DNA of 64,000 nucleotides from the NCBI GenBank assembly GCA_026014705.1, contig JAOZHU010000015.1, positions 62,001-126,000 on the forward strand. Reading direction: 5' to 3'. Shown in pieces: positions 10,253 through 21,127 of this stretch (its first letter is position 1; the number at the start of each line of letters is the position of its first letter). Origin of the DNA: Candidatus Bathyarchaeota archaeon. GTDB taxonomy: Archaea; Thermoproteota; Bathyarchaeia; Bathyarchaeales; Bathycorpusculaceae. The notes under the pieces are model-generated. The model did not search any database, was not told the DNA's origin, and saw only the letters and a list, made by a program, of their open reading frames with translations. The translations under genes and the position numbers were made by a program.

Positions 10253-11317
10253 ATGACCGAACCATACCTCACCAAAAAACTCCAACCCATCCACGTAAAA
10301 CAAAAAACCATCTCACAACTCCTCACAGAAATGAGCCGAACAGCCTACCAAGGAAGAAAACTAGGCGAAACAGTCGACATCTGGGAAAACATGATAAAAG
10401 AAAAAAACCTCACCATCGCCATGGGCTTAGCAGGCTCCATGAGCACCGCAGGACAATGGACAATAATCAACTGGCTCATCCAAAACCGCTACATCGACGT
10501 ACTCGTAAGCACAGGCGCCAACGTATCCGAAGACATCGTCGACGCCATGGGATTCGGCTACTGGCAAGGCACCCACATGGCAAACGACGAAGCACTACTC
10601 AAAGCAGACATCAACAGATACTACGACGTATTCGGCAAAGAAACCGACTACCGCAAAATGGAAGAACTCATCACAGACTTCGTCCTCACCCTCAAAACCG
10701 ACCACCCATACTCATCCCCAGAATTCTTCCACCTACTCGGCAAATATCTCAGCAACAAAAAAATCCCCGCCATAGCCGCAACCGCCTACGAAAACAACAT
10801 CCCCATATTCAGCCCAGCCATGGTCGACAGCGCCTACGGCGAAACCTTCCTCATGGCAAAAAACCAAGGACACAACATAATCCTCGACAGCGTAAAAGAA
10901 TTCGACCAATTCGTCACCATAGGCACCAAAACCCGAGACATCGGCGTAATCTACATCGGCGGAGGAGTGCCAAAAGACCTAACACAACTCATCGCCATAT
11001 CCGTATCACCGAAAACCAACGACCAAGGCGTAACAGGAAGAGACGGACACCTGCGCAAAGGACTCCAAGAATACTACTACCCACACAAGTACGCCATACA
11101 AATAACCACCGATTCCCCGCAATGGGGCGGATTATCAGGCTGCACGCTGGAAGAAGCCGTAAGCTGGGGCAAAATCAACAGCGAAACAGGAAAAAGAGCC
11201 GTCTGCTACTGCGACGCAACCATCGCCTTGCCGCTGATAACGCACGCGTTGAACGAGCGTGTGAAGACAAAACGCAAAGGACCCGACATGACGTGGCTCT
11301 TCAAGGACTTAACTTAA
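10253..11317 (+). CDS. Deoxyhypusine synthase family protein, paralogue 1
   Basis: 354 residues with the DHS fold: an N-terminal segment, MGLAGSMSTAG and VSTGANVSED in the NAD-binding part, and near the C-terminus EEAVSWGKI, with the catalytic-type lysine at residue 307. DHS transfers the aminobutyl group of spermidine to a lysine of aIF5A. This protein is longer and more divergent than the neighbouring paralogue and could act on another amine acceptor, as homospermidine-synthase-like members do. It ends four bases inside the 3' end of the convergent paralogue. The coding strand is extremely A/C-rich and poor in G. GAGGTG lies 7-12 bases before the ATG. Confidence 0.82.
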   Translation: MTEPYLTKKLQPIHVKQKTISQLLTEMSRTAYQGRKLGETVDIWENMIKEKNLTIAMGLAGSMSTAGQWTIINWLIQNRYIDVLVSTGANVSEDIVDAMGFGYWQGTHMANDEALLKADINRYYDVFGKETDYRKMEELITDFVLTLKTDHPYSSPEFFHLLGKYLSNKKIPAIAATAYENNIPIFSPAMVDSAYGETFLMAKNQGHNIILDSVKEFDQFVTIGTKTRDIGVIYIGGGVPKDLTQLIAISVSPKTNDQGVTGRDGHLRKGLQEYYYPHKYAIQITTDSPQWGGLSGCTLEEAVSWGKINSETGKRAVCYCDATIALPLITHALNERVKTKRKGPDMTWLFKDLT

Positions 11318-12249
11318 ACATCGTTCAACCTGCTCAGCAACGCGTTCACCATCACAGGCAGTATCACCGAAGCGTCACCTTCAATCATAACGCGCTTTGC
11401 CTGCGCGCTGATTTTTCCCCATGAAACCGCTTCCCGTGGTCGCGCACCGCTGAGGCTGCCATCCCACTCGTCTGCCGTGCTTATGTATACGACGTAGTCT
11501 AAGCCGTCTTTGAATTGGTTCCACCATATTGTGTGGTGTTTGGAGATTCCTCCGCCGATGATTAGTGCGCCTGTTTTTTTGGCGGTGAAGACTATGTCGC
11601 TCAGTTCGCCTGAGTCTTTCAGCAGATTAAGCTTGAAGTTGTGGTCTTGGCTGAAGAGCCATGTTTGGTAGCCTGTTGCGCCGTCTGTTATGCCTGGTAC
11701 GTAGATTGGTATGTTGTTTTTTGCTGCCCAGTAGAGTATGGAGGTTTCGTTGCAGATGCGTTTGCCTATTTCTTGGCAGAGTTGGCTGGTTGAGATTTCG
11801 CGTGTGCCTTCTTGCCATAGGTTTTCTAATAGTATTTGCATTTTTTGTTCGATTATTGTGCCGTAGCTGTCGTTTGGGACGAGTACGTTGCCTAGGCGGT
11901 TTATGCCTTTTTCGTGCAGTTTGGCGTCGTTCATTGTGAATGAGCCTTTGTAGTAGTTTCGCCAGCATCTTGCCATGTCGTGGTCTATTGTGCCGCAGGT
12001 GGTTATGATTACGTCGATGAGTTTGCGTTTTGTGAGTTCTTTGAGGATTCCGCGTGTGCCTGTGGCTACGAGGTTTCCTGTGAATGAGAGGAATTTGGTG
12101 CAGTTGGGTGTTTTTATCATGCGTTCTAGTATTTTTGTGCCTGTGGCTAGTTTTCCGGCTGTGAATCCCCATGCGTTTTCCATTTGGGTTACGAGTTCGT
12201 TTACTGTGGTTTCTTTGTGTGGTTCGTAGTCTCTGATGGGTTCGTTCAT
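11314..12249 (-). CDS. dys: Deoxyhypusine synthase, paralogue 2 (more canonical)
   Basis: 311 residues, the usual length of archaeal DHS. Visible motifs are FTGNLVATGTRG, IITTCGTIDHD (NAD site), GIT-DGATGYQTW, IGGGISKHHTIWWNQ, STADEWDGSLSGA and REAVSWGKI, with the lysine at residue 279 that carries the enzyme-imine intermediate. It would make deoxyhypusine on aIF5A, needed for translation. It is convergent with paralogue 1, overlapping it by four bases, and its promoter element at 12409-12438 matches that of paralogue 1. Like its partner, its coding strand is A/C-rich. Which paralogue is the true aIF5A enzyme is inferred from motif conservation only. Confidence 0.85.
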   Translation of the reverse strand: MNEPIRDYEPHKETTVNELVTQMENAWGFTAGKLATGTKILERMIKTPNCTKFLSFTGNLVATGTRGILKELTKRKLIDVIITTCGTIDHDMARCWRNYYKGSFTMNDAKLHEKGINRLGNVLVPNDSYGTIIEQKMQILLENLWQEGTREISTSQLCQEIGKRICNETSILYWAAKNNIPIYVPGITDGATGYQTWLFSQDHNFKLNLLKDSGELSDIVFTAKKTGALIIGGGISKHHTIWWNQFKDGLDYVVYISTADEWDGSLSGARPREAVSWGKISAQAKRVMIEGDASVILPVMVNALLSRLNDV

Positions 12250-12408: not shown

Positions 12409-12438
12409 CTATACCCCCCTTATAAATACTATAAATAG
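12409..12438 (-). promoter_or_regulatory. Promoter element B: TATA box plus G-run, upstream of dhs paralogue 2
   Basis: Read on the minus strand it is CTATTTATAG, TATTTATAA, then GGGGGGTATAG, followed by TTTTTCCCA. Element C at 44.8 kb shares this downstream TTTTTCCCA and the next 15-20 bases approximately (GCrCyAGmrCGCA). The element lies about 160 bases before the dys start, so the leader would be long (about 130 nt). Confidence 0.65.
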
Positions 12439-20401: not shown

Positions 20402-21127
20402 TTAGCTGCGGAATTTCTGCAGTTTCTGCAGCATTTCTTTGTCGCCTTCGGCGTCGCCTGCGCATGTTGCGATTATGCCGTCAACCATGCCTTCTAGCTT
20501 CGCAGCGGTTTTTTCCACGTTTGCCATTGTTGTGGTGACTGGCCACCCGATCATTTTCACGGTTTCCACGTTTTTCGGTGTGCCCACAAGGAAGTACGCG
20601 TAGATGGGTTTGTTCATTTTCTTGCATTCTTTGGCTACTTGCTCGAGTATGGGGAATGTTTTGTCTTCCAGCCTCATGAAGTAGATGAAGTCCCATGCGC
20701 CTTTTGCGCGTTCAATGGTTTCTTCCACTGAGCGCCGCGCTGTCAGTAGGCAGCCTAGTTTTAGGTTTTTGAGTTTCACTTGGGTGCGCAGAAAGTCACG
20801 TGCTTCTTCGCTGGATTTGAGCATTTTTATGGGTTCGCCGTATTTTGGGTTGTCGCCCATTGTGACTGCTAAGCCGTCTAAGCCGATTATGTCCGCTGCG
20901 AGCGCTAAGCCGCCGACTTCGACTGGTCCCTTGTAGTGCAGTATGAAGATGGGGCAAACGTATTTTTCAGGGTACTTCTGTTTGAGTATGCAGCTTACGA
21001 CTACGCCGCTGGGTGCTGGGAAGCCTGCTGCGCTGTCGGTGACGTTCCATCCGTCGACTAGTGGCGCGATTTCTTCTGCTAGCTTTAGGAATTTTCGTGT
21101 TGGAACAAACTCGTTTAGTATCTTCAT
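20402..21127 (-). CDS. Methylenetetrahydrofolate reductase-like protein (MetF family)
   Basis: 241 residues, somewhat short for MetF (about 290). The barrel shows WNVTDSAAGFPAPSGVVVSCILK near the N-terminus, HYKGPVEVGGLALAADIIGLDGLAVTMGDNP (the flavin-side MetF motif GDNP) and KLKNLKLGCLLTARRS. MetF-type enzymes reduce methylene-tetrahydropterin to the methyl form. Beside a CODH/ACS cluster and an F420 gene it may supply the methyl branch of the Wood-Ljungdahl pathway with tetrahydromethanopterin. It is convergent with the acyl-CoA synthetase gene. Cofactor and pterin specificity cannot be read from the sequence. The long gap to the cdh genes means no operon link. Confidence 0.72.
   Translation of the reverse strand: MKILNEFVPTRKFLKLAEEIAPLVDGWNVTDSAAGFPAPSGVVVSCILKQKYPEKYVCPIFILHYKGPVEVGGLALAADIIGLDGLAVTMGDNPKYGEPIKMLKSSEEARDFLRTQVKLKNLKLGCLLTARRSVEETIERAKGAWDFIYFMRLEDKTFPILEQVAKECKKMNKPIYAYFLVGTPKNVETVKMIGWPVTTTMANVEKTAAKLEGMVDGIIATCAGDAEGDKEMLQKLQKFRS

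Follow-up and report, generated by a model that had tools for sequence, protein, structure and literature searches.

Why does a Candidatus Bathyarchaeota genome keep two genes of the deoxyhypusine synthase (DHS) family tail to tail, and do the two proteins, here called A and B, perform the same reaction? The genes lie in a 64,000-nucleotide stretch of contig JAOZHU010000015.1 (hereafter the window), and from protein families, motifs, trees, gene content and gene pairing we infer the substrate of A, its product and the use of that product by B. The two are probably pathway partners, one making a polyamine and the other drawing on such a compound when it activates a translation factor. In the reading that we favor, with a probability of roughly two in three, B is a canonical DHS, A couples small amines to a homospermidine-type triamine, and A probably provides the donor for B.

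Protein families, active-site motifs and phylogeny of A and B

The first-pass annotation of this locus described two DHS-fold genes meeting tail to tail with a four-base overlap, each retaining the lysine of an EAVSWGK motif. The open reading frames bear out both points (Table 1): the TTAA common to A and B is the end of a stop codon on either strand, and the motif ends at the lysine listed for each protein. Pfam DS scores were 296.9 bits for A and 374.8 bits for B (cut-off 27), and no PF01916 gene other than A and B was found in the genome of the window (96.4% complete). The two proteins share 98 of 304 aligned residues (32%), and they fall into different families: A scored 451.9 bits on NF002006 (cut-off 434) and B 442 bits on NF002294 (cut-off 350), each scoring far lower on the model of the other. 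A remained below the cut-offs of NF002699, the model named 1,9-bis(guanidino)-5-aza-nonane synthase (234 bits; cut-off 500), and of NF001980 (198 bits; cut-off 450). Among the matches listed, the closest named relatives of A were 86% identical and came from Candidatus Bathyarchaeota genomes. Its predicted structure was confident (pLDDT 93, pTM 0.92), and a Foldseek search with this model returned human DHS as top matches, with TM values by query length of 0.71-0.79 in the best 50 rows.

Table 1. Features of the paired DHS-family genes, in window coordinates.
Feature	Coordinates	Strand	Remarks
Gene A, DHS-family protein (NF002006), predicted homospermidine-type (small amine) synthase	10253..11317	+	354 aa; K307; K241-D242-L243 replacing K-H-H
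Gene B, canonical archaeal deoxyhypusine synthase (NF002294)	11314..12249	-	311 aa; K279; K237-H238-H239
Overlap of both stop codons, TTAA, 4 bases	11314..11317	.	From ORF coordinates; overlap length differs between relatives
Promoter-like element CTATTTATAGTATATAAAAGGGGGGTATAG before A, TATA-box type, general in genome	10140..10169	+	28/30 bases match B copy
Same promoter-like element before B	12409..12438	-	28/30 bases match A copy

The active-site motifs separate the two types. B loci read GGG[IV][SA]KHH, and the A loci found by profile read GGGVPKD[LF][IT]Q, with D242 invariant across 28 A homologues. PMC7226451 describes His288 of human DHS as an invariant proton acceptor/donor; alignment maps this residue to the second histidine of the KHH of B and to L243 in A. 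A candidate stand-in for this residue in A, His278, was rejected, being invariant in 11 sequences and not in 28.

In a first phylogeny, the branch dividing the A side from the B side received support of 100/97, and the A clade 100/99. The labels A, B and C in this tree were assigned by motif (A being PKD or PKN), so that the motif of those rows holds by construction and the tree's own result is that the motif group forms one clade. A motif filter left L234, L236 (both NF002699 proteins), L240, L242 and L246 out of this tree; L234 and L236 entered a second one. There, the Trichormus and Sphingomonas proteins passing NF002699 joined A, apart from B, at 100/99, and A as a clade separate from the NF002699 members received weak support (81/59). 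These two proteins, one cyanobacterial and one from a Sphingomonas plasmid, are homologues of assayed enzymes, with a function predicted from the model match; like A, they lack the histidines.

Given their separate, fully supported clades, their 32% identity and the loss of KHH in A, A and B are not redundant copies. The annotation had held that a shared recent clade with identical active-site residues would argue for redundancy; the trees and motifs gave neither, and both trees rule out a simple duplication of one enzyme. Its further suggestion, a different substrate for one of the paralogues, is supported by the separate clades and differing active-site motifs, and by the occurrence of A in bacteria without eIF5A described below.

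Relatives of the window's genome hold further DHS-like genes. A third clade (motifs GGGVPRN and PETGGLSGST) comprises L131-L138 and L143, from families f1, f4 and f6; one member, L134, adjoins a universal stress protein gene (Pfam), and genes judged similar by eye lie near L137 and L143. In family f4, a DHS gene with a PKHY motif (L117:3508-4932) lies directly downstream of aIF5A, and its motif makes the aIF5A-linked DHS there neither A nor B type. In five loci (L118, L121, L123, L124 and L144) a further DHS gene, A-like or of the third type, lies in a cluster whose other genes, varying by locus, encode pyruvoyl arginine decarboxylase and arginase-family, GNAT, metallo-beta-lactamase, GCS2 ligase and Pfam-less proteins; this cluster may make a modified polyamine.

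Conservation of the gene pair, and a general promoter element

The pairing of A and B is widely conserved in the window's family, f1, in which 70 of 90 genomes carry A, at 72 places. For 60 of these, B is found on that contig too (50 convergent, 10 tandem with A before B, none divergent), and for the remaining 12 on a different one. By domain ends, 33 of the 50 convergent pairs are less than 300 bases apart and 17 are separated by 0.6-4.1 kb. This count, made among the matches listed, left out some third-copy and non-f1 PF01916 places, so that "unlinked" is a weak statement outside the window's family. Sequences yielded 45 distinct pairs, 35 convergent and 10 tandem; open frames of ~663 aa of B type, considered as A-B fusions, proved to be two separate tandem genes. 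Convergence is also seen in two aigarchaeal pairs, L206 and L232, with gaps of 3 and 8 bases; one comes from a genome named Aigarchaeota and the other groups with Calditenuaceae. In L206 the B gene scored 399.8 on NF002294, above the cut-off of 350, and the A gene 422.3 on NF002006, below that of 434. A quick tree built from 113 A proteins places the tandem lineage, and likewise the aigarchaeal pairs, away from the window's lineage. This distribution suggests that A/B pairing arose repeatedly; alternatively, it may reflect loss from an old pair. The conserved pairing is the new element of this work: no such A/B gene pair was found in the open-licence literature on Bathyarchaeota and deoxyhypusine, the body of print to which this statement refers.

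The junction itself is variable. The first-pass annotation had raised the possibility of antisense control through the overlapping 3' ends, and such control, or transcriptional collision, might be the reason why the pair is kept. In agreement with this, 22 of the 35 distinct convergent pairs overlap (12, by 4, 8 or 17 bases) or lie within 18 bases of each other (10). However, the overlap ranges from 17 bases to none, 578-4003 bases separate the genes of the other 13 convergent pairs, 10 of all 45 pairs are tandem, and inserted genes break the junction. The overlap is thus no conserved design, the suggestion of antisense control finds no support, and we hold this explanation of the pairing to be very improbable. 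The genes found between convergent A and B in two genera (L101-L110 and L112) appear, by eye, helix-turn-helix-like and toxin-antitoxin-like.

The annotation had also assigned A and B the same promoter element and, from it, a linked role under shared control. The element is real: the two copies are nearly alike (Table 1), and its core GGGGGGTATAG has three matches in the window with at most one mismatch, a count reached by none of 100 shuffles. It is not, however, specific to the pair. Allowing three mismatches, the 25-base core occurs in 27 copies in the window's genome, against none for a reversed-pattern control. This promoter class, TATAGTATWTAWAAGGGGG[G/C]TATAG, several copies of which are identical over 25 bases, stands before rpl3 and the genes for thermosome, aIF1A, glycerol-1-phosphate dehydrogenase, class II aldolase and others, some of them housekeeping genes. 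Furthermore, no such element was shared between the upstream stretches of A and B in 20 other pair loci from 19 genomes, a comparison in which L060 offered just 50 bases before A and L012 and L057 are one and the same pair. We therefore rejected the promoter as a specific sign of shared control; the case for a linked role comes from the conserved pairing, and a promoter general in this genome adds nothing to it. An association of the element with A/C-rich transcripts was likewise not supported (27 sites, Wilcoxon p=0.17).

Both genes show a marked codon bias. The frequency of T at third codon positions of the coding strand is 0.01 in A, 0.04 in B and 0.04 in the gene at 20402-21127, the lowest values of the 35 window genes tabulated. 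This depletion was not seen in ten relative loci. Within the window's genome, T-poor third positions recur in rpl3, the glycerol-1-phosphate dehydrogenase gene and others behind the same element, and are absent from the genes for aIF5A, arginine decarboxylase and agmatinase. The bias would fit high expression of A and B and does not prove it.

A-type genes in bacteria and the predicted polyamine pathway

Among the matches listed, A-type genes are present, at 47-58% identity, in several bacterial groups, namely Patescibacteria, Dadabacteria, Thermodesulfobacteriota, Zixibacteriota, Chloroflexi and others. We surveyed eIF5A in 30 A-carrying genomes (15 bacterial and 15 archaeal, mostly metagenome bins) chosen from 80 listed loci, and found it in none of the bacteria and in all of the archaea. 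Fourteen of the 15 bacteria have no PF01916 gene besides A, the exception being a Zixibacteriota genome with two, while 14 of the 15 archaea carry two or three such genes; in the remaining one, Aenigmatarchaeota assembly G275, aIF5A is present and A is the only DHS gene. In five bacterial loci (L173, L174, L176, L177 and L181) the gene order is SpeD-like, A, agmatinase-family; Pfam searches on a sample of them returned AdoMet_dc in three and Arginase in one. Clusters of speD, speY and speB for homospermidine have been published (PMC10407285), and these loci resemble them. An agmatinase-family gene lies upstream of A in the G275 locus (L182), and in Bathyarchaeia beyond the window's family A directly precedes a pyruvoyl arginine decarboxylase gene (L116, L150 and L170, with Pfam applied to L116; L116 and L170 belong to near-identical genomes). 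Most of the remaining loci that were read showed no polyamine gene next to A.

These data bear on two alternatives. A might be a second DHS that also modifies aIF5A, redundantly or under other growth conditions; it keeps the DHS fold and K307, the NF002006 label reads DHS, and G275 has aIF5A with A alone. We nevertheless consider this unlikely, given the separate clade of A, the loss of its His288 equivalent, its presence in 15 bacterial genomes without eIF5A and the polyamine genes adjoining it. In Trypanosoma brucei, DHS paralogues form mixed tetramers with higher activity (PMC7780104), and the conserved pairing would be compatible with a tetramer in which A tunes B. Yet A retains the catalytic lysine and, in 14 bacteria of the 15, is accompanied by no other DHS-family gene and so needs no B partner there; we consider a mixed tetramer unlikely as well.

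The window's genome encodes a pyruvoyl arginine decarboxylase, an agmatinase above the TIGR01230 cut-off and a second arginase-family protein, leaving open a route from arginine through agmatine to putrescine. It also encodes one aIF5A (156.7 bits), so that the substrate of B is present. No match to spermidine synthase, AdoMet decarboxylase or carboxynorspermidine decarboxylase (nspC) was found in this 96.4% complete genome. With no known spermidine route there, the product of A is likely the triamine pool and the donor for B, and A feeding B would explain the lasting pairing of their genes.

In the mechanism that we propose, A would join two small amines through lysine-imine chemistry like that of B. 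These would most likely be a pair of putrescines or of agmatines, supplied by the arginine decarboxylase and agmatinase encoded elsewhere in the genome. Homospermidine would arise directly, or after agmatinase removes the guanidino groups. B would then use NAD+ to transfer the aminobutyl group of the triamine to the lysine of aIF5A. For A the most plausible reading is a SpeY/CdmS-type small-amine synthase, and for the donor of B it is the product of A or spermidine, with spermidine uptake as a further source that the cell may have. Archaea might use homospermidine as donor (PMC5178350), and a title cited in PMC7226451 and PMC6105217 reports a reverse reaction of DHS that yields spermidine or homospermidine. 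Against A as an amine synthase stand the NCBI label of NF002006, "deoxyhypusine synthase", an annotation whose cut-off A passes, the failure of A to reach the NF002699 and NF001980 cut-offs, and the combination of genes in G275.

Alternatively, the product of A could be a caldomycin-like guanidino triamine, kept as such or used by B, so that aIF5A would receive an agmatine-derived group. The nearest named tree relatives of A pass NF002699, an enzyme of this type couples two agmatines (PMC10981699), and agmatine is the main polyamine of haloarchaea (PMC5178350). The agmatinase of the genome, and the agmatinase-family genes adjoining A in several relatives, favor instead removal of the guanidino groups, and we regard a retained guanidino triamine as improbable.

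The distribution of these genes across the class was less clear-cut. At least 245 of 256 genomes have a PF01916 match, and at least 158, by hand count from the class table, have two or more, so that the annotation's premise of a single DHS in most archaea fails here. With thresholds set from gaps in the score listings, NF002006 matches of at least 366 bits, taken as A, occur in 108 genomes and spermidine synthase matches of at least 140 bits in eight; none of these eight carries A, compared to 108 of the other 248 (Fisher p=0.011, a value that ignores kinship). In family f27, among the matches listed, 23 single-copy genomes have no A, with a strong spermidine synthase match in one genome only, indicating that a missing spermidine synthase need not call for A. 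Since the p value ignores kinship and family f27 does not fit, we rejected a class-wide replacement of spermidine synthase by A.

A stronger version of our preferred reading is more tentative, and we put it at somewhat less than even odds: the homospermidine of A, or its guanidino precursor, would be the regular aminobutyl donor of B in a spermidine-free hypusination of aIF5A. The pathway would then act as one unit, accounting for genes that came together repeatedly, in both convergent and tandem order in Bathyarchaeia and in convergent order in Aigarchaeota, and the product might perhaps be handed over directly from A to B. If so, the label "deoxyhypusine synthase" would be wrong for most members of NF002006. 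The model would be misnamed for the proteins of many archaea and bacteria, whose predicted polyamine pathways would change accordingly. The substrate of DHS has been raised as a question for haloarchaea, given agmatine as their main polyamine (PMC5178350). The pair would offer a concrete answer, for a large and mostly uncultured class, as to the amine used to modify aIF5A where archaea lack spermidine genes.

Comparison with known systems

The closest solved chain to B is PDB 8put_A ("Probable deoxyhypusine synthase"; 318 bits over B residues 4-306), which we take to be the DHS of Sulfolobus solfataricus. B resembles this and other archaeal DHS proteins (NF002294) in its KHH motif and catalytic lysine, and differs in having an adjoining DHS-fold paralogue and a genome with no spermidine route seen. 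The S. solfataricus DHS was assayed in vitro on aIF5A with spermidine, upon which a new peak appeared (PMC6105217).

A shares its fold, its catalytic lysine and the absence of KHH with the DHS-like homospermidine synthase SpeY and with CdmS (NF002699), to which it forms a sister clade; it differs in missing the NF002699 and NF001980 cut-offs and, in Bathyarchaeia, in being paired with a true DHS. To our knowledge, no activity has been described for the clade of A. The AlphaFold model of caldomycin synthase is reported to have a DHS-like structure (PMC10981699).

Mixed DHS tetramers of the trypanosome type contain one subunit without the catalytic lysine, whereas both lysines (K307 and K279) are present in A and B. 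The Haloferax plasmid DHS-family protein (L235), which may be HVO_B0182, passes NF003052 and, although labelled C by motif, falls on the B side of the tree, unlike A. Haloferax volcanii likewise has two DHS-family genes, HVO_2297 and HVO_B0182, the second being proposed as a homospermidine synthase; the passages of that paper on these genes place HVO_2297 near aIF5A and name no A/B pair (PMC5178350). Finally, plant homospermidine synthases are DHS duplicates that turned to triamine synthesis (PMC7780104), as is proposed here for A, but they stem from lineage-specific duplications, whereas A defines an old clade common to archaea and bacteria.
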